NCBI GenBank assembly: GCA_001799895.1
Contig: MGUI01000043.1
Coordinates: 1 to 49,340, forward strand
Origin: Elusimicrobia bacterium GWD2_63_28
GTDB lineage: Bacteria; Elusimicrobiota; Elusimicrobia; Elusimicrobiales; UBA9959
Reading direction: 5' to 3'
DNA: 49,340 nt
Position 1 is the stretch's first letter; every line of letters begins with the position of its first letter. Below are positions 810-12,182 of this stretch, piece after piece. The notes beneath the pieces were generated by a model that saw only the letters and a program-made list of their open reading frames with translations, searched no databases and had not been told where the DNA came from. The position numbers and the translations under genes are program-made.

Positions 810-1127
810 GGAAGGTCGGCCCGCCGGGGGTGTGGGGGCCTCTGGCACGGGGTCTCGCACACCGTGCTCGCCCCTCGTCACTCAGTCGTCGCGCTTACGC
901 AAGCTCCTCCCTCCGTGACGGCCCTCCACACGGTTCGCCGCCAGGCAGGCAAATTATATAGGTAATTGACCACACCCTGATGTTGCGGCCAGGCAATACG
1001 AGTATTCATATAGTAAAATATGAACATTGTGGAAGGTTTTTTGATTGGGGTATCTGTTAAATTGTTGTAGCTCATTTTATGTTGCGTGTTAGTGGAATCC
1101 AAGTGTTTCGATAAGAGGAATTCTCAA
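810..1127. other. Intergenic transition between rpsJ and the AT-rich island
   Basis: The first part (810-950) is GC-rich and low in complexity, with no credible gene on either strand. After about 950 the composition becomes AT-rich and stays so through three genes, so the island edge lies near here. A TAAAAT at 1014-1019 is a possible -10 for the first island gene. No tRNA, integrase or flanking direct repeat was recognised. Confidence 0.5.
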
Positions 1128-2150
1128 ATGGATGAAACTGGTCGGAAAAGATGGGAGTCAAAGTATAAACAGTTGCTTGATGATGAGTCTGGAATCTATC
1201 TTAAACATGATATCCCAGAGAATGTAGTTGTAAGAGCCAGGAGCAGTCTTGGGAACTTAATCCAAACATGGACTGAGGTGTTTGGGAACTTCTGGCAGCG
1301 TACGCGACATTCAAATCCAGAAATAGAAATAGATGCAGCTAAAGCTGAAATTGCCTCTCTCATTGAAAATGAAATACAACGGATTAACTTGCGTATTGGA
1401 CAGCTGTGGGCGAACCAATTGGAGCGTCTCCACGACTTGAAAATGGCGGGTAAAAAACTTGAGTCAACAGCGGAGGTTCAGTTGGATAAATCAGTTGAAA
1501 TCCTTGATAATCTTTTGGCCCATAGCCGATTTGAATTAGACGAAGAATCTAAGGTGCGTAGGGAGCGTTGGACAGAGATTCTTGTTAGCAGCATGTTGTC
1601 TCTGGTGTTCGGTGGGGCAATCGCACTTTTTAGTGTCTGGATAACTAATAAGTCTAATATGGAAAAGTTAGATCCCTATTTGGATATTAGCTTGGGCGAA
1701 CAGGATAAGATGGGCTTAATCCCAGTAAGCAGTGACACATTGCATCTTTCACTCATGAATAGCGGGCCTACTGATGTCGAAAATATACGAGTATCCTTAA
1801 CAAGTTTTCATGGCTCGTTGACTCTGGATAAGATAATTCAGGATTATGTGCAGACAGTCCCGAATTACAGTCTAAAAACACTTAAAAAGGGTGATAGTGT
1901 CGATATCGTTTTTGGGAATAACGATATATTTAAGTGGTCTAGTATGTTCGCTAATGAGGATTCTGTTTATAAGAAGGATTCGAGGTATAAAGGGTTAATA
2001 TTGTTAGTGAAATTGCACACAAGTTATCGAAGAGCGGTTGATAAAAAGATATTTCACACTACCCAAGTGTTTATTGCCAATAGGCACAATATTGTCCCAA
2101 TCCAGGCAATGTCAACTCGTGATGATTTCCTGCCGGGATATCTGCGATAG
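1128..2150 (+). CDS. Membrane-anchored coiled-coil protein of the AT-rich island (unknown function)
   Basis: The product has 340 residues. I chose the ATG at 1128 over the upstream in-frame start at 1086 because GAGG (1115-1118) lies 9 nt before it. Residues 1-148 are soluble, charged and helical, with coiled-coil character around 65-145. One membrane segment lies near 150-172 (ILVSSMLSLVFGGAIALFSV). The C-terminal part (about 180-340) looks beta-rich and contains NSGPTDVENIRVSL, which resembles CARDB or Ig-like adhesion folds. No enzymatic motif was seen and no family was recognised. It is AT-rich like the next two genes and probably belongs with them. A sensor or membrane effector role is only a guess. 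Confidence 0.8.
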   Translation: MDETGRKRWESKYKQLLDDESGIYLKHDIPENVVVRARSSLGNLIQTWTEVFGNFWQRTRHSNPEIEIDAAKAEIASLIENEIQRINLRIGQLWANQLERLHDLKMAGKKLESTAEVQLDKSVEILDNLLAHSRFELDEESKVRRERWTEILVSSMLSLVFGGAIALFSVWITNKSNMEKLDPYLDISLGEQDKMGLIPVSSDTLHLSLMNSGPTDVENIRVSLTSFHGSLTLDKIIQDYVQTVPNYSLKTLKKGDSVDIVFGNNDIFKWSSMFANEDSVYKKDSRYKGLILLVKLHTSYRRAVDKKIFHTTQVFIANRHNIVPIQAMSTRDDFLPGYLR

Positions 2151-2162
2151 GGGGAATAATAT

Positions 2163-2190
2163 GGGACGCTGCTTCTTATATTCCTAACTA
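2163..2190 (+). repeat. Degenerate half-REP, GGGACGCTGCTTC type
   Basis: Starts GGGACGCTGCTTCTTATATT and continues TCCTAACT, close to the clean copies at 10701 and 12834. It lies 12 bp after the preceding stop codon, the usual place for these elements here. The following ACCGGGTAAGCGCGGGGGCT may be a decayed terminator. Confidence 0.6.
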
Positions 2191-2244
2191 ACACTAATTC
2201 ACCGGGTAAGCGCGGGGGCTTTGTGAAAGTGGGATAATCAATAT

Positions 2245-3993
2245 TTGCTAATGAAAAAGCGCCAGAAAATTACCGTACGATTGTTGCAGGAATGGCACCC
2301 AAGCAAGAATGTGGGGTTGGATCCAATTGGTTTGACCAGGTTTTCTTTTAAGAAAGTCTGGTGGAAGTGTCGGAAATGCGGGGGGGAATGGGAGGCTCGC
2401 ATTTCTGCCCGTAGTGTCGGCAGGGGCTGCCCCTTTTGCGCTAATCTTAAAGCTTCTCCTGTGAATTGCCTTGCTAAGCACTGCCCTGACATTTCCGCGG
2501 ATTGGGATAAATTGCGAAATGCAACTTTGACCCCGAAGGACGTAACCCCGGGTTCTGCCAAGAAAGTATGGTGGATTTGCTCAAACGGACACCGTCAGTA
2601 TGTCTCAGTTCGCTACAGAACGCAGTCCGGATGCCTTGAATGCCGAAAGCAGGGGAAGTTAAATAAGCTTCGCGCTGAAGGTGATCATTTAGCTGCGAAG
2701 AAAGGCGGACGTGTTCTTCAGCTTATTAAAGAAGGCAGAATTTATAAGCTCGAGTTAGAATGCGATAAGGAGCATAAATGGTGGACCCGGCTTGACCGAC
2801 TGAGACATAATACTTGGTGCAAGGTGTGTGTTCACAAAGCTCTTGCCTTTACGATTAAAGACGCAAAGAAGCTTGCCGCAACTTATGGCGGCGAATGCCT
2901 TTCGACTGAATATAACAACTCAACCACGCCACTAATCTGGCGCTGCAAGCTGGGCCACACTTGGGAATCGACTTATTCCAATGTGGCAGCCGGAGGCTGG
3001 TGCCGGCATTGTGCCTCCGGTAAGTCCGAGCGGATTTGTCGTGCTCTTTTCAAGGCTACATTTGGTAACGATTTCAACAAGCAACGCCCAAAGTGGCTAA
3101 TTGGCCCCTCCGGCAGTCCCTTGGAATTGGACGGCTACGCGCAAACATTGGGTATTGCTTTCGAATTTCAAGGCCATCAACACACAAAAAAACACGATTA
3201 TTTTGATAAAACTGTTACCTCTTTTGAAAAAAGGAAAATGTACGATCAGGTAAAATCTGCCTTATGCAGGCAGAAGGGTGTAAAACTCTTTCAAATCTTC
3301 CCATTCGAAGATATTTCTGATTTGAGGCGGCAACTCCTTCGCGAAGCCAAGCGGCTTAATATTAAACTTCCTAAGAATCCATCCACGGTTTCAGTGTCTG
3401 GGGCCGAAACGGCCTCCCCCGATATGACGCTTAGGATGCTAAAAGCTGCTAAAAATGCCAGACTCAAGTTGCATACTGACTATTGTTCTGATGCTAATCA
3501 GCCAATTCTCGTAGAGTGTGAAGATGGACACAAATGGAACACAAATATCCATCGTATTGAGAAGGGACAGCATTGCAGAGTGTGCGCTGGTCTGGTACGT
3601 TTAGATCTTAGGGATATTAAAGATTGGGCAAGAAAGAGAGGGTGGACTTGTCTCTCAAAATCTTACCTTGATAGCCGAAGTAATCTTACTTGGAAATGCA
3701 GTAAAGGGCATATTTGGGAGGCCTCCTGGAGTAATGTTTCAAAGAAAAATCGTCCGACCGGATGCCCTGAATGCGCAGGAAAGCGGCGCCACACTATTTC
3801 CGAGATGCATAGCTTTGCAGCCAGTCGGGGGTGGCGTTGCCTCTCTACAAATTATGTAAACAAAGACGCCCATTTGATTTGGCAATGCGCCAAAGGCCAC
3901 AAGTGGTCGGTCTCATATGGCAATGTAAAAACATATAAAGATTGTCCTCATTGTACTGGGTATGCCAAATCGATACACTTAAAGGGGGAATAG
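2245..3993 (+). CDS. Nuclease-like protein with seven treble-clef/zinc-ribbon repeats
   Basis: The product has 582 residues from TTG 2245, where GGGA at 2231-2234 is well spaced; ATG 2251 is the alternative start. Four zinc-ribbon repeats come first (about residues 14-65, 76-133, 150-195, 207-256), each built as W-x-C-x2-C or C-x2-GH, W/Y, then a terminal C-x2-C; the first contains EWHPSKN and CPFC, as in the DUF4379 family. A nuclease-like core follows (about 260-372) with LELDGYAQ and AFEFQGHQH, where D296, E307 and Q309 fit a PD-(D/E)XK or Vsr-like site (ExQ in place of ExK). Three more ribbons end the protein (about 393-450, 455-517, 520-573). Zinc binding and cleavage of nucleic acid are inferred from family resemblance. 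The gene sits between two other AT-rich genes on the same strand. Confidence 0.8.
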   Translation: MLMKKRQKITVRLLQEWHPSKNVGLDPIGLTRFSFKKVWWKCRKCGGEWEARISARSVGRGCPFCANLKASPVNCLAKHCPDISADWDKLRNATLTPKDVTPGSAKKVWWICSNGHRQYVSVRYRTQSGCLECRKQGKLNKLRAEGDHLAAKKGGRVLQLIKEGRIYKLELECDKEHKWWTRLDRLRHNTWCKVCVHKALAFTIKDAKKLAATYGGECLSTEYNNSTTPLIWRCKLGHTWESTYSNVAAGGWCRHCASGKSERICRALFKATFGNDFNKQRPKWLIGPSGSPLELDGYAQTLGIAFEFQGHQHTKKHDYFDKTVTSFEKRKMYDQVKSALCRQKGVKLFQIFPFEDISDLRRQLLREAKRLNIKLPKNPSTVSVSGAETASPDMTLRMLKAAKNARLKLHTDYCSDANQPILVECEDGHKWNTNIHRIEKGQHCRVCAGLVRLDLRDIKDWARKRGWTCLSKSYLDSRSNLTWKCSKGHIWEASWSNVSKKNRPTGCPECAGKRRHTISEMHSFAASRGWRCLSTNYVNKDAHLIWQCAKGHKWSVSYGNVKTYKDCPHCTGYAKSIHLKGE

Positions 3994-4022
3994 TAGTAGG
4001 AAAGATAGTGGGAATGTAGGCA

Positions 4023-4089
4023 GGTCTTAACTTTTGACCTTTAACTCGAACCCGCCGGGGAAGCCTAGACATTTTGATTTAGTGAAATG
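4023..4089 (+). repeat. Decayed REP plus terminator module
   Basis: GGTCTTAACTTTTGACCTTT resembles a REP variant, and CCCGCCGGGGAAGCC (4051-4065) followed by ATTTTGATTTAGTGAAAT matches the standard terminator/-10 module with the right stem arm lost. It shows that the island carries the same punctuation as the host genes, but degraded. Confidence 0.5.
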
Positions 4090-4186
4090 GATAAAAGAGG
4101 TCTAGTTGGTCATTCCGTTGTCAGCGTCCCTAGTGCCGTTTTGAAATAGAAAGTAATAAACCATGTTGTTTTGAATGAGGAATCTA

Positions 4187-4966
4187 ATGCGTGCTACCAG
4201 AATCACAAGTTTTACTTTGCTCGATAATGCAAAAGACTCCTTGGCGCATGCCGTTTTGCATTTGTCTGATTTGGAAGATAAGTCCCCAAGGAAGTGGAAA
4301 ATTGCGATACGTGAAATCACACATGTTATTGAACTCCTACTAAAGGAAAGATTGCGACGGGAACACCCCGCTCTGATTTGGATAAAAGCTGATGACTACT
4401 TATCAATGGATAAGCCTACGGTTGGCATCTCTGAGGCCGCAGATAGATTGCATCGTATTTGTAATATCCCACTCCCCAAAGGTGCAGATCGGACACTGAA
4501 TGCCTGCAAGAAACTTCGGAATCGCATTGAACATTGTGAATTTCAGCTCAATGAGGCTGAGGCTAAAGGATTTGTGGGAAGATTGTTGTCTCTTATTATT
4601 GTTTTCTCTAAAGAGCATCTTTCTGTAGACTTTGAAACGGAGTTTCGGAATGATAAAAGTTGGAAGGATTTAATCGAAATTGTGGAGTTTCGGGAGGAAC
4701 AGGTTAAGTCCATCAGAGAGCGTTTTGTGAGGGAGGAAATTTCTTCAGATGTATGCCCGTCATGTGGTGAGGACACTTTTCATCTCGAGGAAGAAAGATG
4801 CTGCCTGTGTGATCACCATGAGCGTTTAATTGAATGTGAAGCTTGTGGTGTTTTGTTATTTCAGTCAGAGAGTAAGTATCTGTCTGGACCAAATGATGAA
4901 GATGACGCATGTTTCTGCATGGATTGCTATGTTGATATAATGCATGCGGAGCACGACTATGATTAA
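4187..4966 (+). CDS. HEPN-like protein with C-terminal zinc ribbons
   Basis: The product has 259 residues. ATG 4187 is preferred over 4175 because GAGG (4177-4180) sits 6 nt upstream of it. The first 170 residues are helical and contain LRNRIEHCEF, whose R-x4-H (R111, H116) matches the RNase signature of HEPN domains. The C-terminal 80 residues hold several Cys pairs (CPSCG, CCLCDHH, CEACG, CFCMDC), a pattern of one or two zinc ribbons. HEPN proteins are often RNA-cleaving effectors in toxin-antitoxin and antiphage systems, so an RNase effector role is a reasonable inference, not proven here. The gene is AT-rich and on the same strand as the zinc-ribbon nuclease gene 193 bp upstream. Confidence 0.72.
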   Translation: MRATRITSFTLLDNAKDSLAHAVLHLSDLEDKSPRKWKIAIREITHVIELLLKERLRREHPALIWIKADDYLSMDKPTVGISEAADRLHRICNIPLPKGADRTLNACKKLRNRIEHCEFQLNEAEAKGFVGRLLSLIIVFSKEHLSVDFETEFRNDKSWKDLIEIVEFREEQVKSIRERFVREEISSDVCPSCGEDTFHLEEERCCLCDHHERLIECEACGVLLFQSESKYLSGPNDEDDACFCMDCYVDIMHAEHDYD

Positions 4967-5000
4967 TGGAAGGACAACCATGCGGGTATAGGGCCCCGCC

Positions 5001-5024
5001 AAAAAAGTAGCTGCCACCTTTTTT
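5001..5024 (+). terminator. Weak hairpin after the HEPN-like gene
   Basis: AAAAAAG (5001-5007) can pair with CTTTTTT (5018-5024) around a 10-nt loop. An A/T-only stem with a T-run is a weak terminator candidate. Confidence 0.35.
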
Positions 5025-5036
5025 ATGGAGGGAATC

Positions 5037-5068
5037 GGGGGGACGCTGATTCCGAATTCCTAATTGCG
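5037..5068 (+). repeat. Half-REP before terminator
   Basis: GGGGGACGCTGATTCCGAAT followed by TCCTAATTGCG is a diverged copy of the GGGGACGCTGCTTCC family, directly abutting the next terminator. Confidence 0.6.
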
Positions 5069-5069
5069 A

Positions 5070-5243
5070 AGCCGCCGGGGGAGCCCGGCGGTTTTGTTTT
5101 GTGGCGACAGGCCGTTGTCAGTGCGGGGTGCTATCCTATATGGGCGGGGGGAAGTGCTTTTTGTATTCCATACGCATACAACAAATTTGTTGGTATGGCC
5201 GCTGGAACAAAAAAGGGGGCAGGGATGTCAGCCAGTTATGGGG
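5070..5243 (+). repeat. Copy 1 of a duplicated terminator-promoter-operator block
   Basis: This block is nearly identical to 6132-6307: terminator, TGTGGCGACA, a CTATCCTATATGGGCGGGGG stretch, an AT-rich palindrome and AACAAAAAAGGGGG leading into an ATG. In this copy the palindrome (5175-5197) has one extra G and the ATG at 5225 opens a dead reading frame. The two copies flank the receiver gene at 5546-6097. Confidence 0.85.
5071..5100 (+). terminator. CCGCCGGG-family terminator (module copy)
   Basis: CCGCCGGG (5072-5079) pairs with CCCGGCGG (5084-5091), followed by TTTTGTTTT. Confidence 0.85.
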
Positions 5244-5245
5244 TA

Positions 5246-5273
5246 GGGGACGTTCTTAACTATTGGACTATTT
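5246..5273 (+). repeat. Half-REP, GGGGACGTTCTTAAC type
   Basis: GGGGACGTTCTTAACTATTG continuing GACTATTTG parallels the copy at 7530 (GGGACGCTCTTAACTATTGA). It lies inside the broken XRE remnant. Confidence 0.55.
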
Positions 5274-5296
5274 GGTGGATAGTAGACGCTCTGTTT

Positions 5297-5321
5297 CTAA
5301 GGTTCCAATTTGGAACCTTAG
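5297..5321. promoter_or_regulatory. 25-bp perfect palindrome (orphan operator candidate)
   Basis: Arms CTAAGGTTCCAA and TTGGAACCTTAG flank a single T. The shape resembles operators of XRE/HigA-type antitoxins, yet no regulator gene adjoins it. It shares its CCAATTTGG core with the palindrome at 5376. Confidence 0.55.
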
Positions 5322-5375
5322 AGGTAGGGCACTAAAAGCAGGTCGCTGCATCTTAACTCCTATGTGTCGAATCTT

Positions 5376-5398
5376 TAAGATGCCAATTTGGCATCTTA
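5376..5398. promoter_or_regulatory. 23-bp perfect palindrome related to the one at 5297
   Basis: Arms TAAGATGCCAA and TTGGCATCTTA flank a single T. The outer and central bases match the first palindrome and only the inner pairs differ, as expected for two operators of related regulators. It lies 148 bp before the receiver gene. Confidence 0.55.
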
Positions 5399-5475
5399 GA
5401 GCATATAAGGGGATATTAGGGCCGTAGGTGGGAGACGCTTTTACCATTTGATTCTTGTGTTTCCGCTTGGCCTAT

Positions 5476-5497
5476 AAAGCCCGGCGGCTTTATTTTT
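5476..5497 (+). terminator. Short degenerate hairpin before the receiver gene
   Basis: AAAGCC (5476-5481) pairs with GGCTTT (5486-5491) around CGGC, followed by ATTTTTA. It looks like a decayed CCGCCGGG module. Confidence 0.35.
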
Positions 5498-5545
5498 ATA
5501 CAATAATCCGGAGAGGGCTGGTCAGCGGGGATCTGGGGGATAGTT

Positions 5546-6097
5546 ATGATGATTCTTATTGTGGACGATGATAAGGACAGTCTGTTCATGACTGGCGCCA
5601 TGGTGAAGCAGTGCGGCTACACTCCGGTAACGGTTTCGGACGGCGCCCAGGCGCTCTCCCTTATAGCCGACATGGATATACGGGTGGTCATAAGCGACTG
5701 GGAGATGCCGGGACTGACAGGCATTGACCTGGTGCGGGCCCTGCGCGCCGACAGGCTGCGGCCTTACGTTTATTTCATCGTGCTCACCGGCAAGAGGATA
5801 GGCAGCATCAACTTTATGGAGGCCATGGACGCCGGGGCGGACGACTACATGGAAAAGCCGGCGCACAAGGACCTTCTGAAGGTCAGGCTGCGGGTAGCGG
5901 AGAGGATACTGAAGCTGGACATGCAGATGAAGGACTTAAGCAGACTGGTCCCGGTATGCGCCAGCTGCCGACGCGTGCGCCGCGATGACCAGGCGTATGA
6001 AAGCATCGAGCAGTATATTTCCAAGAATTCCGAATTCAAGTTCTCTCACGGCATCTGCCCGGAGTGCATGAAGAGGCTGTATCCGCAGATCAAGTAG
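5546..6097 (+). CDS. Receiver-domain response regulator with C-terminal four-Cys motif
   Basis: The product has 183 residues. Residues 1-120 form a CheY-like receiver: acidic D7-D9, phospho-acceptor D51 in VVISDWEMPG, T81 and K104 in MEKP. The tail (about 134-183) has C138-x2-C141 and C171-x2-C174 within a LVPVCASCRRVR...FSHGICPECMKRLYP pattern that in other bacteria ends many receiver and hybrid-kinase proteins and probably binds a metal. There is no DNA-binding domain and no histidine kinase nearby, so its partner is encoded elsewhere. ATG 5546 and 5549 are both possible starts. The gene lies between two copies of a 170-bp repeat. Confidence 0.9.
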   Translation: MMILIVDDDKDSLFMTGAMVKQCGYTPVTVSDGAQALSLIADMDIRVVISDWEMPGLTGIDLVRALRADRLRPYVYFIVLTGKRIGSINFMEAMDAGADDYMEKPAHKDLLKVRLRVAERILKLDMQMKDLSRLVPVCASCRRVRRDDQAYESIEQYISKNSEFKFSHGICPECMKRLYPQIK

Positions 6098-6101
6098 GCA
6101 G

Positions 6102-6132
6102 AGGGACGCTGCCGAGTTCTTGCGCTGTTCGC
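6102..6132 (+). repeat. Half-REP before terminator
   Basis: GAGGGACGCTGCCGAGTTCT, a diverged GGGGACGCTGCTGAGTTTT-type copy, directly after the receiver stop and abutting the terminator. Confidence 0.6.
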
Positions 6133-6162
6133 GCCGCCGGGGAAGCCCGGCGGTTTTGTTTT
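6133..6162 (+). terminator. CCGCCGGG-family terminator
   Basis: CCGCCGGG (6134-6141) pairs with CCCGGCGG (6146-6153), followed by TTTTGTTTTG. It ends the receiver transcript. Confidence 0.88.
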
Positions 6163-6176
6163 GTGGCGACACGCCC

Positions 6177-6204
6177 TTGTCGGGGTTGGCTGCTATCCTA
6201 TATG
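6177..6204 (+). promoter_or_regulatory. Possible promoter of the XRE gene
   Basis: TTGTCG (6177-6182) and TATATG (6199-6204) are 16 bp apart. The stretch is repeated upstream in copy 1. Confidence 0.4.
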
Positions 6205-6236
6205 GGCGGGGGGAAGTGTTTTTTGTGTTCCATACG

Positions 6237-6258
6237 CATACAACAAATTTGTTGTATG
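6237..6258. promoter_or_regulatory. 22-bp perfect palindrome, probable operator of the XRE regulator
   Basis: CATACAACAAA is followed directly by its reverse complement TTTGTTGTATG. It lies between the promoter and the ATG at 6287, where a repressor would block its own gene. Confidence 0.65.
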
Positions 6259-6286
6259 TCCGCTGGAACAAAAAAGGGGGGCAGGT

Positions 6287-6571
6287 ATGGCAGCCAGGGA
6301 TTACGGGATGAAGGATTTTGAGGAGGAATTCATAAAGACCCCGGCGCAAAGACTGGCTGTCGAGCGGGCCCTCGCGCGCCTGCTCATAGGCCGCAAGGTG
6401 GCTGACCTGCGCACGGCCGCGGGCATGACCCAGGCTCAGTTGGCGGGGCGGCTGCGCACAAAGCAGCAGGTGATCTCCCGCCTGGAGCAGGCCAAATACA
6501 AGCCATCCCTGCGCACCCTCGAGAAGATCGCCCGCATCTTCTCCCGCCGCCTGGAGATAAACTTCGTCTAG
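6287..6571 (+). CDS. XRE-family helix-turn-helix regulator (solo antitoxin-like)
   Basis: The product has 94 residues from ATG 6287, with GGGGGGCAGG just upstream. Residues 34-88 form the HTH_XRE domain: VADLRTAAGMTQAQLAGRLR, then the recognition helix KQQVISRLEQ and the SLRTLEKIARIF helix. The N-terminal FEEEFIKTPAQRLAVERALA resembles HigA-type antitoxins, but no RelE/HigB-like toxin lies on either side. The 22-bp palindrome upstream suggests autorepression. It could be a stranded antitoxin or a simple repressor. Confidence 0.88.
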   Translation: MAARDYGMKDFEEEFIKTPAQRLAVERALARLLIGRKVADLRTAAGMTQAQLAGRLRTKQQVISRLEQAKYKPSLRTLEKIARIFSRRLEINFV

Positions 6572-6590
6572 TCTTCCTGACCAGCGCAAA

Positions 6591-6620
6591 GCCGCCGGGG
6601 CCGACCGGCGGTTTTATTTT
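6591..6620 (+). terminator. CCGCCGGG-family terminator after XRE gene
   Basis: CCGCCGG (6592-6598) pairs with CCGGCGG (6605-6611), then TTTTATTTTG. Confidence 0.85.
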
Positions 6621-6709
6621 GTGATGGAGTAAAGGGCCCAGAGTCCGAAAGGCCAAAATACCGGATAGGCCTAGTCCCTATGGCCCCTGTTCCTTAGCTG
6701 CGTGGGGGC

Positions 6710-6715
6710 TATAAT
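6710..6715 (+). promoter_or_regulatory. -10 box of the ADP-ribosyltransferase gene (leaderless)
   Basis: TATAAT ends 6 nt before the GTG start codon, so transcription would begin at or next to the codon itself. No Shine-Dalgarno site is present. Confidence 0.65.
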
Positions 6716-6721
6716 ATTTTC

Positions 6722-7525
6722 GTGGGATTATTTATAAACCTGTTAGCCGGCTGCCTGCTGGCGTCCGCCATTGCCGTCAACGCCTCAGCTGAATTTTCCT
6801 TCGACAGCCGTTCGGCCGGCCTTTCCTTTGCCGCTGACCTAGTACCCGTTGCGGTGCCGCTCGCCGCGCCTGCCGGAGCGCAAACGTACGATTTTAAGTC
6901 CCTCTACCGCTCGCTGGGGTATCCCTCCGCCGACTTCTTCGGCTCTTCGGAGGACGAGGTGATGGCGCTGGAGGCCTATATCAGCAAGGAAGACCCGATC
7001 TACAACGAGATAAACGGCTACCTGCGCTATCATCCGCAGCCTTACGCCTGGTACGGCACCGGCCCGGACGACGCGAAGGTCATAGTGGGCCATATCGACA
7101 AGATATTGCGCAGTGCGCCGAAGCTGCCCGGCGACCTGGTGCTCTTCCGCGGCCTGGGCCTCGGCTACCGGCAGGACAAGCCTTTTGAGACAGGCGAGGA
7201 GTTCACCGACAAGGGCTACGTTTCCACTTCAGTTACCTACAGCGTGGCGCGCTATTTCGCCATGGAGATGACTGACGAGGGAAAACCCGACCGGCGGGCC
7301 GTCTTCGCCCTGTACTTCGCCGGGCCCGGAGAGCGCGGCATACTGATAGACCAGCGCGAGGACGAGGTGATACTGGGCCACGGCCGCAAATTCAGGGTTA
7401 TGGCGCGCAAGGACGGCATGGCGAAATACGACCTTTACCTGGTGCAGGTCTGCGCCGCCTCCTGCGACACTACCCTGCGCGGCGACGTTAATGATTTTTG
7501 GAATTCTTTCAGCGTCAGCGACTGA
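6722..7525 (+). CDS. Exported ADP-ribosyltransferase of the R-S-E class
   Basis: The product has 267 residues starting at GTG 6722, right behind a -10 box. Residues 1-23 are a signal peptide (FINLLAGCLLASAIAVNASA). From about residue 57 the protein follows the ADP-ribosyltransferase exoenzyme (VIP2/C3-like) plan: an INGYLR helix near 97-102, R143 in LVLFRGLG, the STS motif 168-170 in FTDKGYVSTS, and a Glu-x-Glu (E213, E215) in QREDEVIL before GRKFRV. These are the NAD-binding Arg, the Ser-x-Ser class motif and the catalytic Glu of mono-ADP-ribosyltransferases. The target is unknown. No immunity partner or ADP-ribosylglycohydrolase is adjacent. Confidence 0.85.
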   Translation: MGLFINLLAGCLLASAIAVNASAEFSFDSRSAGLSFAADLVPVAVPLAAPAGAQTYDFKSLYRSLGYPSADFFGSSEDEVMALEAYISKEDPIYNEINGYLRYHPQPYAWYGTGPDDAKVIVGHIDKILRSAPKLPGDLVLFRGLGLGYRQDKPFETGEEFTDKGYVSTSVTYSVARYFAMEMTDEGKPDRRAVFALYFAGPGERGILIDQREDEVILGHGRKFRVMARKDGMAKYDLYLVQVCAASCDTTLRGDVNDFWNSFSVSD

Positions 7526-7529
7526 CCTA

Positions 7530-7562
7530 CGGGACGCTCTTAACTATTGAACTATTTGAGAC
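7530..7562 (+). repeat. Half-REP, GGGACGCTCTTAAC type
   Basis: GGGACGCTCTTAACTATTGA then ACTATTTGAGAC, immediately after the stop codon and before the terminator. Confidence 0.65.
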
Positions 7563-7567
7563 GGTCC

Positions 7568-7597
7568 GCCGCCGGGAGAGCCCGGCGGTTTTGTTTT
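7568..7597 (+). terminator. CCGCCGGG-family terminator
   Basis: CCGCCGGG (7569-7576) pairs with CCCGGCGG (7581-7588), then TTTTGTTTTG. Confidence 0.88.
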
Positions 7598-7669
7598 GCG
7601 GGGGTGGGCGGAAATAATAGAATATCGCTATGAGGTGGAGAAGGACGGTTAGCTTTTAATGGAGTCAAC

Positions 7670-8368
7670 GTGAAGATAGGCATAATCGCCGCGATGGAAG
7701 AGGAGCTGCGGGAGCTGCGCAAGCGCCTGGAGCGGCCGCGCATAGCGCGCCGCGGGGCTTTTGTATTCTACACGGGCCGCCTGCTCGGCCACAGGGTGAC
7801 GCTGCTGCGGTGCGGCATCGGCAAGGTCAACGCCGCTGTGGGCACGGCGCTGCTCATAAACGAATTCGCGCCCGAGCGGGTTATAAACACAGGCGTAGCC
7901 GGAGGTTTCCCGCCGGATAAATTGCGCGTCGGGGATATCGTAGTCTCCGCCGAGGTGCGCCACCACGATGCGGACGCCACCATTTTTGATTACGAGTTCG
8001 GGCAGATCCCCAAAATGCCCGCGGCCTATTATCCAGATAAGCGCCTGTTGGCGCTGGCCATGCGCGCGCTGAAAAACGAAAAGGACGCGCGGGGGCTGCG
8101 CGGCCAGATAATGTCCGGGGATTCCTTTATCCATAACCCGCGGCAGATCCGGGATATCCTTAAAAAATTCCCGTCGGTGATGGCGGTGGAGATGGAGGGC
8201 GCCGCCATAGCCCAGACCTGCTACCTTTTCCACACGCCGTTCCTCGTCATCCGGTCCATTTCTGACATCGTCACTGCGGATAAGAGCCATAAGGTGTATA
8301 AGACTTCCATGCCGGAGGCGGCGCGGCGGTCGGTGGCGCTGGTGCTGAAGCTGCTCGAGGCGCTGTAG
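7670..8368 (+). CDS. mtnN: 5'-methylthioadenosine/S-adenosylhomocysteine nucleosidase
   Basis: The product has 232 residues, the family length, from GTG 7670 with GGAG at 7661-7664. The start MKIGIIAAMEEEL holds the conserved E12. Also present are CGIGKVNAA, NTGVAGG, the substrate-binding VEMEGAA and RSISDI, whose Asp is the proton donor in characterised enzymes. The enzyme removes adenine from methylthioadenosine and S-adenosylhomocysteine in the methionine salvage and methyl cycle. It is a single-gene unit between two terminator modules. Confidence 0.93.
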   Translation: MKIGIIAAMEEELRELRKRLERPRIARRGAFVFYTGRLLGHRVTLLRCGIGKVNAAVGTALLINEFAPERVINTGVAGGFPPDKLRVGDIVVSAEVRHHDADATIFDYEFGQIPKMPAAYYPDKRLLALAMRALKNEKDARGLRGQIMSGDSFIHNPRQIRDILKKFPSVMAVEMEGAAIAQTCYLFHTPFLVIRSISDIVTADKSHKVYKTSMPEAARRSVALVLKLLEAL

Positions 8369-8374
8369 AGGGCA

Positions 8375-8404
8375 GGGGACGCTGCTGAGTTTTTGAGTTA
8401 TTTG
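8375..8404 (+). repeat. Half-REP, GGGGACGCTGCTGAG type
   Basis: GGGGACGCTGCTGAGTTTTT then GAGTTATTTG, directly before the terminator stem. Confidence 0.7.
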
Positions 8405-8405
8405 T

Positions 8406-8442
8406 GCCGCCGGGGAAGCCCGGCGGGTTGTTTTGGTAGAAT
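8406..8442 (+). terminator. Terminator with extended -10
   Basis: CCGCCGGG (8407-8414) pairs with CCCGGCGG (8419-8426), then GTTGTTTTGG and TAGAAT at 8437-8442, preceded by TGG as in an extended -10. It serves the gene at 8491. Confidence 0.85.
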
Positions 8443-8490
8443 AAACGCTGGGTACGGAGCGGGAGCCGGATATGGCATCAATAAATTGAT

Positions 8491-8943
8491 ATGAGGATAG
8501 CGGCTATAATAGCGGCGCTCGCGGGACTTCTTTTCTGGGTATATGTGTGGCCCTCGGTAAGGGTCATGCGCGCCCTCGGCAGCGACGTGGAGGCGTTCAG
8601 GGCGCTGGAGGACTTGCGGGGACAGGTCGCGGAATACCGGAAGGCCAGCGACGGCCGGCCGCCCGCGGACCTCTCCAGCATGAAGGTTCCGGAGCTTAAA
8701 CTGTACTGCTTCGATAAGGAAAAGCGGGGCATGCACCGGCACGGGCGCATTTCCGGAGTGGAGTTGAGGCCAAGCCCGGAGAATTTCAGCGCGGCGTCTT
8801 CGACAGGTATGCCCCGGGGCCAGGCCAGGAGCCATCTCGACGGCGACAGCGGGAAATGGCTGTACGACCCTGTGACAGGCTTGGTGGTCATTGGCTGCAC
8901 CGGCACGGATACCAAGCACGGACATCCCTGGAACGAATATTGA
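8491..8943 (+). CDS. Small membrane-anchored protein, pseudopilin-like tail (unknown)
   Basis: The product has 150 residues. An N-terminal hydrophobic segment (about 3-22) anchors it, with the rest outside the membrane. A charged helix (about 30-52) and a C-terminal KWLYDPVTGLVVIGCTGTDT, resembling the end of type II/IV pseudopilins, are visible, but there is no prepilin-peptidase site. A five-codon frame ATGGCATCAATAAATTGA (8472-8489) ends one base before its ATG and may couple translation. Function not recognised. Confidence 0.65.
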   Translation: MRIAAIIAALAGLLFWVYVWPSVRVMRALGSDVEAFRALEDLRGQVAEYRKASDGRPPADLSSMKVPELKLYCFDKEKRGMHRHGRISGVELRPSPENFSAASSTGMPRGQARSHLDGDSGKWLYDPVTGLVVIGCTGTDTKHGHPWNEY

Positions 8944-8948
8944 CGGCT

Positions 8949-8964
8949 GCCGGGCTTCCCCGGC
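8949..8964 (+). terminator. Short hairpin without T-run
   Basis: GCCGGG (8949-8954) pairs with CCCGGC (8959-8964); only TACTTT follows. It is probably a shortened CCGCCGGG module, so read-through into the next gene is likely. Confidence 0.4.
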
Positions 8965-8972
8965 GGTACTTT

Positions 8973-9809
8973 ATGGGGATTAATTTTTCTTTCAATAGCC
9001 GCCGCCGGACAGAGGCGGAAACTCCGGAAGCGGCCAGGGCCGCGCGTGTTTCCGTGAACGGGGAGCCTGAGGACGAGCCGCTGGAGGACCTGTCGCCTGC
9101 CGGTTCTGCCGCGCAGCAGCCCGGCCCCGCGGCGCGGCCCTGGGGCGGCTGGCGAACAGGGGTCCTGATGACTGCCGGACGCAGGCTGGCCGCGGCCGCT
9201 CCGCCGCCGCGCGGCATTTCCCGCGGGCTGCGGCTCGCTGTGCTGTTCGGCAATAACTTCGTGCTTATGAGCCTGTTCGTGCTGGCGCTGGTCTTTGTGC
9301 CGTCGCTCGACAAGCTGCACGGTATAGTAGGCGGGCTGCGCGAGGGGCTTACCGATCTTTCCGCGGCGTGGCTGGTCCTGCCGGGGGCCTTCCTCTTCGC
9401 GGTCGCCGTCTCCGCCTTTACCGGGTGGTGGGCTTTCCGTTTCGGCCAAATGCAGCTGGACCGCCTGGTGAATTGGCGGCTTTGCCACGCCAGGCTCAAG
9501 TCCAAAGTGAAGATAACCTGCGGGGATTCCGAAGTCTACCGCATGAGGTTCGAATACGAAGCCGGGGGACAGAAATACACCAATATCTCGGACATGAACT
9601 TTACCTCCGCCATGGAGGACGAGACGGAAGAGCCCGTGCTTTACGACCCGCTCAAGCCCCGGCGCTCCATGCTGGTTGACGAACTGCCCGCCTCGATAAT
9701 ACTCGATGAGCGCGGCGGCTTCACCTCCCGGTGGCCCTTCATGGGCTACTTCTACGCTTCGCTGCCCCTGCTGCTGCTGGCCGCCATGGGCATAGCCGCC
9801 TTCCGCTGA
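8973..9809 (+). CDS. Two-segment membrane protein with DUF3592-like domain
   Basis: The product has 278 residues from ATG 8973, 29 bp after the previous gene. Residues 1-80 are Pro/Ala-rich and charged, probably cytoplasmic and disordered. Membrane segments lie near 86-108, 128-150 and 257-276. Between them MRFEYEAGGQKYTNISDMNF and EPVLYDPLKPRRSMLVDE follow the DUF3592 pattern of a soluble beta domain between helices. No enzymatic role is known for that family. It may share a transcript with the 8491 gene. Confidence 0.65.
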   Translation: MGINFSFNSRRRTEAETPEAARAARVSVNGEPEDEPLEDLSPAGSAAQQPGPAARPWGGWRTGVLMTAGRRLAAAAPPPRGISRGLRLAVLFGNNFVLMSLFVLALVFVPSLDKLHGIVGGLREGLTDLSAAWLVLPGAFLFAVAVSAFTGWWAFRFGQMQLDRLVNWRLCHARLKSKVKITCGDSEVYRMRFEYEAGGQKYTNISDMNFTSAMEDETEEPVLYDPLKPRRSMLVDELPASIILDERGGFTSRWPFMGYFYASLPLLLLAAMGIAAFR

Positions 9810-9818
9810 CACGACTGA

Positions 9819-9849
9819 GCCGCCGGGGAAGCCAGGTGGTTTGTTTTGT
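9819..9849 (+). terminator. CCGCCGGG-family terminator (imperfect), between convergent genes
   Basis: The right arm has diverged to CCAGGTGG, leaving one mismatch and a G-T pair. TTTGTTTTG follows. Confidence 0.7.
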
Positions 9850-9872
9850 GCGGGAGCCTTCCCCTATCGCGC

Positions 9873-10655
9873 TCAGCGGGCGAATTTGACCACAAGGGCG
9901 TGGTTAAGGCCGAAGTCGTTGCGCTTGATGCCGGGTGACGGGCGCGAGTCGTATTCCTCGGTGGCAGTGAGCCTGAATGCCACGGCTTCCTTCCAGACCT
10001 TGAATTCCAGGTAGCTTTCCGCGTATAGGCGCGCGTCGCCGGTGTCGGCCAGGCGCGGCGTGTAGATGAGGTCGCCGTTGAGCTTCATCGTGTCGGTGAG
10101 CTGCATGGCGAAGTTGAGCCGCCCCGTGGCGCGCAGGTCGCGCTTGATGCCGCCGGCGTTGTCCTTTTCGTATTCGGGCGTGAGGCCGGCGCTGAGCATG
10201 ACTGGCTTGAGGACCCCGGGCAGGAAGTTGTGATAGCAGAGGCCGGCGGTATTGGTCATGCGGTACTTCACGCTGCGGAACTTGTCGTGGTTGTGCGTGG
10301 TCTGCAGGAACAGGTTGAGGCGGGGTTTAACCGCATAGGCGTAGAGCAGCGAACCCTTGGACTTATCCGTAACCGCAGTTTCGCCGTATTTCACGTAATT
10401 ATCCGCGGCCTGCAGGAAAACGGAGTGGTCCGTCGCGGGCTTCCAGTCGAACTCCAGGCCCCCGTTGAAACCGTAGTTCTTTACGTTTCCGTTGAGGTAA
10501 CTGCCGCCGAGCGTCAGGTCCAGGCCGTAGAGCGTGTGCGGCTTCCAGGCCTCCGGCGGGCGAACGCGCAGGTCTTCGGTGCGGACGAACTGTGCTGCTG
10601 CGCTTCCGGCCAGAAGGGCGAGCAGTGCCGCTGCGAGGGTGTATCTCTTGTGCAT
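9873..10655 (-). CDS. Outer-membrane DUF481 (YdiY-like) beta-barrel protein
   Basis: The product has 260 residues with signal peptide 1-21 (TLAAALLALLAGSAAAQ) and GGAGG just before ATG on the minus strand. The mature part alternates polar and apolar strands and starts with LDLTLGGSYLNGNVKNYGF, the typical first hairpin of DUF481 proteins, continuing through barrel-like strands to the terminal VVKFAR. The family is annotated as salt-induced outer-membrane protein, with unclear function. Its presence supports a diderm host. Confidence 0.82.
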   Translation of the reverse strand: MHKRYTLAAALLALLAGSAAAQFVRTEDLRVRPPEAWKPHTLYGLDLTLGGSYLNGNVKNYGFNGGLEFDWKPATDHSVFLQAADNYVKYGETAVTDKSKGSLLYAYAVKPRLNLFLQTTHNHDKFRSVKYRMTNTAGLCYHNFLPGVLKPVMLSAGLTPEYEKDNAGGIKRDLRATGRLNFAMQLTDTMKLNGDLIYTPRLADTGDARLYAESYLEFKVWKEAVAFRLTATEEYDSRPSPGIKRNDFGLNHALVVKFAR

Positions 10656-10678
10656 GATTTCCTCCGGTGTCTGTTAAG

Positions 10679-10684
10679 ATTTTA
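10679..10684 (-). promoter_or_regulatory. -10 box of the DUF481 gene
   Basis: TAAAAT on the minus strand, 23 nt before the ATG, leaves room for the GGAGG ribosome site. Confidence 0.5.
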
Positions 10685-10700
10685 GCAAACACGGGAGATA

Positions 10701-10732
10701 GGGGACGCTGTTTCCTATCTTCCTAACTAGTG
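10701..10732 (+). repeat. Half-REP, GGGGACGCTGTTTCC type
   Basis: GGGGACGCTGTTTCCTATCT then TCCTAACTAGTG, directly before the terminator. Confidence 0.7.
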
Positions 10733-10736
10733 CGAA

Positions 10737-10773
10737 GCCGCCGGGGAAGCCCGGCGGTTTTGTTTGGTAGAAT
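10737..10773 (+). terminator. Terminator with extended -10
   Basis: CCGCCGGG (10738-10745) pairs with CCCGGCGG (10750-10757), then TTTTGTTTGG and TAGAAT (10768-10773). It precedes the TPR gene on the + strand. The DUF481 gene is divergent, so here the module acts mainly as insulator and promoter. Confidence 0.85.
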
Positions 10774-10806
10774 GTTTAAAAAGCGGGGCGGATAACAAGG
10801 AAGGAT

Positions 10807-11628
10807 ATGGGAAAGATATTAAAATGGGGACTGGCGGCCGCGGCTTGCGCGGTGATCGGGCTGGTCGCGTATTTCTTTAACTACCGGGCTACCGCCTCGT
10901 CTTGTCTGGCGCGTAACTCGGCCGGGTCCCTGAAGGCGTGCAATTCCATGGTCTCCCGGCTGCCGGACGACAGGGTGGCGATGTATCTGGCAAGCCGCGC
11001 TGTCCTTTACGAGGATGCCGGGAAGCAGGCGGAGGCGCTCGCCGACCTGAAGCGCCTCGCCGAACTGCATAGTATCGGCAAGGCGGCAGTGCCTGAAAGC
11101 ACGCTGCTGCGCACGCATGAGCGCATCGCCATGCTCAGCGCTGAATCCGGCGACGTGGAATCCACTCTGACCTATGGCGGCAAAGCTGTATCGATGGGGA
11201 GCAAAGCCCCGAACGTGCATATGATGCTGGGGCTGGCGGCCTCGTCCGGAAAGAAATATCCCGAAGCCATCGGATACCTGCGAAAGGCGGAGGAATTCGG
11301 GATCTTGTCCGCCCAAGGCGCGAATACCGCGCAATTTTTCTACGCCTATGGGCGCGCTGCCCTGGAGGCCGGCGACCATGAAACGGCGTTCGCCTACCTT
11401 TCAAAGGCGGAACCTCTTATGAAGGATCCGGCCGGGCTGTCCCGGATAAATAAGGCGCTCGGCCGCGCCCTTTTCGAGGTGAAGCGATATCCGGAGGCCA
11501 AGGCGCGCCTGCAGGCGGTGCTGGCTTCCGGGGCGGAATGCCCGGAATGCACGCAATTCCTCGCGGCTATTGCCCAAGCAGAGAAAGATGCGGCCCGCAC
11601 GAAGCGCGCGGCCAGGAAGAAACGGTAG
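10807..11628 (+). CDS. Membrane-anchored tetratricopeptide-repeat protein
   Basis: The product has 273 residues. Residues 7-26 form an N-terminal anchor or signal. The rest is helical with TPR-like units, clearest at AVYLEDAGKQAEALADLKR-like residues near 68-85, MMLGLAASSGKKYPEAIGYLRKAEE, AYGRAALEAGDHETAFAYLSKAE and ALGRALFEVKRYPEAKARLQ. The C-terminus is Lys/Arg-rich. TPR proteins are scaffolds; the partner is unknown. It stands as a single-gene unit. Confidence 0.82.
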   Translation: MGKILKWGLAAAACAVIGLVAYFFNYRATASSCLARNSAGSLKACNSMVSRLPDDRVAMYLASRAVLYEDAGKQAEALADLKRLAELHSIGKAAVPESTLLRTHERIAMLSAESGDVESTLTYGGKAVSMGSKAPNVHMMLGLAASSGKKYPEAIGYLRKAEEFGILSAQGANTAQFFYAYGRAALEAGDHETAFAYLSKAEPLMKDPAGLSRINKALGRALFEVKRYPEAKARLQAVLASGAECPECTQFLAAIAQAEKDAARTKRAARKKR

Positions 11629-11670
11629 GGAGAAAGCTCCGTTCCTTTGCCCGCTGCCGCGCAGCACGGA

Positions 11671-11727
11671 GCCGCCGGGGAAGCCAGGCGGTTCTGTTAA
11701 AACCGGATAATCCCCATTTGCTAAAAT
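11671..11727 (+). terminator. Terminator (imperfect) with nearby -10
   Basis: CCGCCGGG (11672-11679) and CCAGGCGG (11684-11691) pair with one mismatch; TTCTGTT follows. TAAAAT at 11722-11727 is a likely -10 for the receiver gene at 11781. Confidence 0.7.
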
Positions 11728-11780
11728 AGTTTTTGTGGGCCGGTGGAACGGCGGGGAATGCGGCGCTTTGTCCTGAAAAA

Positions 11781-12182
11781 ATGAAGAAGATACTTATCGT
11801 AGACGACAACCTGGAACTGTCCTGGGTGCTCGCGGAGTGCCTGAAGAGGGAAGGGTATAAAACCCTGACCGCCGGCAGCGGGGCGGAGGGGATAAAGAGC
11901 GCTCTTTCCTTCCTTCCCGACCTGGTGCTGCTGGATTACAATCTTGGCGACATGAACGGTCACGACGTGGCCGTGGCCATCAGGAACATGCATAAAACCT
12001 CCAAGACCCCTTTCCTGATCCTGTCCGCCCACGGCGCCGACCCGCAGCTGGCGCGCGCTTTTGCAAAAATTCCCAACTGCCGCGGCGCCATGTCTAAAGT
12101 GCTTTCCACCAGGGAAGTCGTTAAAACGGTCAGCCAGGCCCTCCACGCGGGGCCAAAAGCCGTCACGCCCCCGCATCATTGA
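11781..12182 (+). CDS. Single-domain response regulator (CheY-like)
   Basis: The product has 133 residues from ATG 11781. All receiver landmarks are present: D8-D9, phospho-acceptor D52 in LVLLDYNLGDMNG, S82 and K106. There is no output domain; a short His/Pro tail (VTPPHH) ends the protein. No kinase is nearby, so it acts with a partner encoded elsewhere. Confidence 0.92.
   Translation: MKKILIVDDNLELSWVLAECLKREGYKTLTAGSGAEGIKSALSFLPDLVLLDYNLGDMNGHDVAVAIRNMHKTSKTPFLILSAHGADPQLARAFAKIPNCRGAMSKVLSTREVVKTVSQALHAGPKAVTPPHH

Follow-up and report, generated by a model that had tools for sequence, protein, structure and literature searches.

The 49,340-nucleotide contig MGUI01000043.1 of Elusimicrobia bacterium GWD2_63_28, analysed at its full length and referred to here as the window (contig C43 of G000, an assembly of 3.29 Mb in 74 contigs), carries behind rpsJ an AT-rich block that consists of three long open reading frames (ORFs) on the + strand, at 1086-4966 in the ORF listing of the window, termed genes A, B and C. 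The block probably represents three AT-rich accessory genes assembled piecemeal at a variable site, of which the likely working part is C, a predicted stand-alone abortive-infection (Abi) RNase of the HEPN kind. For C, this explanation is based on the HEPN fold of a confident structural model, an RxxxxH motif without variation, conservation of the zinc ligands, the profile matches of 39/39 scanned family members, and the restriction, Abi and TIR genes that neighbour its relatives; since these relatives often stand beside anti-phage genes, and since the three genes were not found together elsewhere, C is likely a phage-defence gene that acts alone. An initial annotation of the block had taken the three genes for a single functional unit and a candidate defence system, while allowing that they might be transcribed independently; of these views, the independence of the genes is supported, their relatives occurring in separate genomes and contexts.

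Gene C and the company of its relatives

Gene C is an ORF at 4175-4966 (+), whose likely start, from reading and from relatives, is the ATG at 4187 after AGGA (4187-4966). Its AlphaFold2 model (pLDDT 91.6) has the predicted four-helix fold of the HEPN superfamily, with HEPN chains at the top of the VIA-align list; Foldseek searches with the models of B and C returned no E-value below 0.001, and the statements on fold rest on VIA-align. The predicted RNase site is the RNRIEH motif (R111-H116, at 4517-4534, + strand), in which R111 and H116 are invariant in 39/39 aligned rows and N112 is kept in at least 90% of them, in line with the Rx4-6H signature of HEPN proteins, with a polar residue after the arginine. 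Upstream of it, the acidic residue of the Ex3[KR] signature is also present, E49 and K53 being shared by all 21 close rows; in the wider set of 39, E49 appears in neither the invariant nor the 90% list. The zinc-ligand region (C190-C247, at 4754-4927, + strand) comprises two ribbons with four CxxC knuckles, and in the same 39 rows seven of the eight cysteines are invariant and the remaining one, C244, is present in at least 90%; the RNRIEH motif, the predicted fold and the two ribbons thus bear out the earlier description of a HEPN-like protein with a zinc-ribbon tail.

By profile, C joins the DUF3644/PDC-S64 group of HEPN proteins. PADLOC matched it to PDC-S64 (E 3e-24) over model positions 3-152 of 339, that is, the HEPN half only, and the fusion to a winged helix-turn-helix (wHTH) or restriction endonuclease (REase) domain was not seen in C; all 39 scanned members of the family match both PDC-S64 and DUF3644. 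The HEPN survey of 2013 (PMC3710099), in its available part, reports that EC042_2821, which overlaps DUF3644, is found in fusions with zinc-ribbon domains and within restriction-modification (R-M) operons, and C shares with these proteins (DUF3644/EC042_2821 type, PDC-S64 of PADLOC, HEC-08) the Rx4H HEPN domain and the zinc-ribbon company. Literature searches by the name PDC-S64 found no paper, one by the name HEC-08 listed a single paper, on Acidithiobacillus phages, DUF4379 (the domain matched in B) occurs in three papers, and no experimental test of the HEPN-plus-zinc-ribbon family of C was found in the searches. A tested example of the logic proposed for C is Tha, which the accessible part of its paper (PMC11087260) presents as a single tail-activated anti-phage HEPN protein with an RNxxxH-type site, a non-specific RNase with Abi-like action. 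Compared by these descriptions, Tha and C are both single proteins with a site of this type, but the HEPN domain of Tha is C-terminal, behind an unassigned N-terminal part, whereas in C it comes first and the zinc ribbons last; zinc is not mentioned in the accessible part of the Tha paper, whereas C has two ribbons.

C was found in 5/147 genomes of the class and 9/340 of the phylum; it had no match in phage records, two plasmid records matched at 26-27%, and viral contigs yielded one distant relative at 23%. Seven close loci were counted (L056, L058, L059, L060, L061, L084 and L063, the last being a larger cut of L057); the distant relatives L064, L065 and L066 (neighbours listed only) and L085 (profiled in part), as well as the locus L086, were kept outside this count. 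Defence-type genes are present at 4/7 close loci, a recombinase alone at 2/7 and neither at 1/7, as a raw count without a random-locus control; the company of R-M or defence genes that marks the DUF3644/PDC-S64 group is seen at four of the seven loci elsewhere, and not in the window itself. The C locus of the same-genus genome G158 (C42:5511-6302) fits L056 of Elusimicrobia bacterium GWB2_63_16, a defence island (2896-11805) with an Mrr-type nuclease, Hypoth_Ymh and C, followed by an Eco57I-type methylase with an XhoI-type endonuclease, an 8xMP protein and ThsB_TIR; L084 likewise has an Eco57I-type methylase, then a weak NucS_C match, C, ThsB_TIR and a weak 4TM-effector match. A ResIII/HSDR_N protein adjoins C at L058, and at L063 an Abi_C protein lies directly upstream of C, with a phage integrase 1.5 kb downstream. 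Serine recombinases stand near C at L060 and L061, and at L059 no defence or recombinase gene was seen, the neighbours being a pyridine-nucleotide oxidoreductase and, by eye, respiratory-chain genes. At L085 (G228), a TIR_2 protein lies 3.5 kb from the distant C relative. G158 and G325 have three ThsB_TIR matches apiece, of which two in the former and one in the latter lie by C; G143, G228 and G000 have none.

This distribution also bears on the alternative that C reached its island position by hitch-hiking and serves in RNA processing as a housekeeping protein, or as the HEPN toxin of an addiction or stress-response module, and not as an anti-phage effector. Such a role appears unlikely: a small antitoxin ORF was looked for between B and C, and by reading only short ORFs without support are found there, none of which stands out beside C; nine of 340 phylum genomes is too sparse a presence for a housekeeping gene; and restriction, Abi and TIR neighbours recur at C loci. 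As the stand-alone RNase favoured here, C would be a HEPN dimer, silent as long as the cell is healthy; its zinc ribbons may gate the activity by sensing a phage-made trigger or RNA, and the activated protein would cleave RNA at its composite R/H site, which would halt translation before phage progeny form. A compact HEPN-plus-zinc-ribbon protein, patchy in Elusimicrobiota and a few other phyla, could in this way be placed among the likely single-gene anti-phage RNases.

Genes B and A

Gene B (ORF 2245-3993, +; likely start, by reading, at ATG 2251, giving 2251-3993) joins the CapR/DUF4379-Vsr group. It contains seven treble-clef-type zinc modules, recognized by the pattern C-x2-3-(H/C)...CxxC, and a Vsr-like nuclease between the fourth and the fifth, in agreement with the nuclease embedded in seven zinc ribbons that had been noticed initially; DUF4379 was matched in six stretches (E 7e-47), and CapR with 22.8 bits, under its cut-off. 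The nuclease domain corresponds to amino acids 257-373 of the 582-aa form (3013-3363, + strand, the range aligned by VIA-align), and E262, D296, E307, H313, D334 and K337 are invariant in 18/18 rows; a search of Protein Data Bank (PDB) sequences with the B alignment gave a single match, at E 0.24. Proteins with repeated CapR/DUF4379-like modules of about 60 aa and a Vsr-like nuclease have recently been described, in the available part of PMC12350094, as an outgroup of the EDxHD/Vsr homing endonucleases, and both the module repeats and an EDxHD/Vsr-like nuclease domain are found in B, but the nuclease is C-terminal there and central in B, which is free-standing in a bacterial chromosome. With Vsr, the very-short-patch-repair endonuclease, B has 12% identity, and it differs in its added zinc modules. 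B was found in 15/147 class genomes, and some of the phage genes that it matches carry a homing-endonuclease annotation; it may be a mobile-type DNA endonuclease in its own right, belonging to the EDxHD/Vsr outgroup and reading DNA with its zinc modules. Clustered DUF4379-type ORFs were observed at L011 and L012 (contig 29 of G066; contigs 7 and 28 of G002), with 12 and 10 B matches per genome.

Gene A (ORF 1086-2150, +; by reading, the likelier start is the ATG at 1128 after AGGA, giving 1128-2150) is a near-orphan. Its one strong hydrophobic stretch by hydropathy, at aa 151-169 of the 340-aa form, constitutes a single predicted transmembrane helix and is consistent with the membrane protein initially assigned. 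No match at E up to 1 was obtained in Pfam, NCBIfam or PADLOC, and the PHROG matches are weak only; a search of 5.8 billion proteins returned A itself and nothing else, and A was absent from the hits in the 146 other genomes of the class and in phage records. The phylum-wide genome search yielded one clear relative, in G232 (E 4e-30, 32% over 201 aa), hits in G014, G299 and G050 (E 0.005-0.01) being disregarded. In G232, this relative belongs to an AT-rich element (L091, 2294-9755) with a serine recombinase, a filamentous-phage-type G2P replication protein and a NERD-domain protein, and because of this neighbourhood A looks like mobile-element cargo there; A itself may thus be a membrane-anchored cargo of mobile elements.

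One system or three genes

That A (as a membrane part), B (as a DNA nuclease) and C (as an RNase) constitute one three-component defence system whose genes are transcribed together is very improbable, although some features of the block and of one related locus speak for it. The three genes do follow one another on the same strand, as first described, and their GC content is similarly low (0.40, 0.47 and 0.42 for A, B and C, with about 0.63 in the rest of the window). Third-position GC is 0.41, 0.47 and 0.40, respectively, against 0.79 and 0.84 in two ORFs of the backbone (at 7670 and 9876), and in 1-kb bins GC is 0.395-0.473 for the four between 1 and 5 kb and averages 0.626 over the other 45 (sd 0.037, minimum 0.532); the two measures agree on the foreign, AT-richer composition that had been reported. 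The gaps are short, 94 bp between A and B (2151-2244) and 193 bp between B and C (3994-4186), the sizes originally given, and each contains a decayed terminator-like module, at 2199-2230 (+; 12/32 mismatches, 1/1000 first-order shuffles as good) and at 4052-4083 (+; 9/32 mismatches, 0/1000 first-order shuffles as good), the second hairpin arm of the latter being gone by reading. These broken hairpins between the genes may permit transcriptional read-through; a shared function need not be assumed. Furthermore, L056 also has, upstream of C, an Mrr-type nuclease that is N-terminally membrane-like and a Hypoth_Ymh gene.

The distribution of the genes argues against such a system. B was found in 0/8 of the other C-bearing genomes, the control genomes G000 and G055 being positive, and B and C stand together in only one of the 147 class genomes, the window's own G000. 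G232, which has the A relative, gave no B (with G055 again positive as the control) and is not among the nine of 340 phylum genomes with C; in G014, where a distant C match was found, the A hit (E 0.005) lies on a different contig and was taken as chance. Each of the genes is found elsewhere in a mobile or defence context of its own. The co-occurrence check suggested by the initial annotation thus returned no second instance of the trio, the outcome named there as refuting the proposal, within the genomes searched, several of which are incomplete drafts (G143: 70%), and the three-gene system was rejected on this ground; of the defence proposal, the link of C to defence, seen at four of the seven close loci, stands, and the single functional unit does not. 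Since its three members have separate relatives and separate contexts, the AT-rich block should not be taken for one system.

The site behind rpsJ and its terminator-like modules

The gene before the island, rpsJ (303-644, +), is conserved, with full-length relatives 92-99% identical in seven same-genus genomes, and is followed by a terminator-like hairpin (678-711, +), a 15-pair stem with a T-rich tail, that is kept in the siblings. At its 5' edge, the AT-rich stretch has a genus-level repeat (815-927, within the zone 812-950), which is 75-77% identical behind rpsJ in L042 and L043 and has four more partial matches in the same genome, on contigs 14, 44 and 63. Sibling DNA with rpsJ was taken from nine same-genus genomes, seven of which (L042-L048) reach at least 9 kb behind rpsJ. 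A, B and C have no match behind rpsJ in 9/9 siblings, and the genes of the window are mostly unshared with the sibling DNA there. AT-rich blocks were present in two of the seven siblings, L043 (1-kb bins down to 0.37) and L046 (0.41), the lowest GC bins of the remaining five being 0.48-0.59, and ndk lies at 12.2 kb in the window versus 4.6 kb in L042; because of the sibling AT-rich blocks, the unshared genes and the shifted ndk, the site is considered variable. When ten genes that lie behind rpsJ in the siblings were run through PADLOC, a weak match to a 4TM effector was the only result. Integration through a duplicated rpsJ 3' end was rejected, as the first 950 bases have no duplicate elsewhere in the window by BLAST. 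In G148 (L049), the rpsJ 3' end is duplicated (30-295 and 3536-3800; 268 bp at 88% identity), with a stop in the second copy, and the copies flank ORFs that are, by eye, transposase-like.

The 32-base terminator-like module CCGCCGGGGAAGCCCGGCGGTTTTGTTTTGTG and its near forms, allowing up to 9 mismatches, have 26 matches in the window, including the copy at 4052; all but two (24) are on the + strand. An intact copy (5072-5103, +; 1/32 mismatches) marks the 3' edge of the block, behind C, and others lie, for example, at 6134, 7569, 8407, 10738, 15775 and 19727. The module is present in 7/7 siblings (L042-L048), three copies in L043 and one in L046 being within the AT-rich blocks. Modules of the genome's own thus lie between the three genes, in keeping with a piecemeal assembly of the block. 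A far bolder version, which we would put forward as little more than speculation, is that in this genus defence-type genes are taken up singly, as cassettes, between copies of its own repeated terminator module and without an integrase: each AT-rich gene behind rpsJ would have come separately via module recombination, the position behind rpsJ would be a standing dock in the sibling species, and later module decay would fuse neighbours into new defence operons. A mobile unit of the homing type, with B cutting behind rpsJ where the site is uninterrupted and with A and C copied in as passengers, is also a rather improbable reading of the block: the architecture of B, that of the EDxHD/Vsr homing-endonuclease outgroup in the part of PMC12350094 available, and its annotated phage matches favour this, but neither an intron nor an intein context is found, module remnants flank B on both sides, and the AT-rich blocks of L043 and L046 have no match to B.

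An Rfam scan of the island for structured RNA gave four matches at E up to 1, none of which reaches the gathering score, and a structured RNA there was rejected. Some module copies continue, by eye, into a promoter-like TGGTAGAAT stretch, and a direct repeat of 122 nt (5071-5192 / 6133-6254, 92% identical) begins inside the terminator-like module. Profiling of window proteins covered A, B, C and the ORFs at 5546, 6722, 7670, 10807 and 12214; the ORF at 6722-7525 is secreted ADP-ribosyltransferase-like (PF03496, E 9e-9), with a start that resembles a signal peptide by eye. Two similar palindromes of the TAAGGTTCCAATTTGGAACCTTAGAG type (5298-5323 and 5376-5401), 78 bp apart, lie upstream of the response-regulator gene at 5546.
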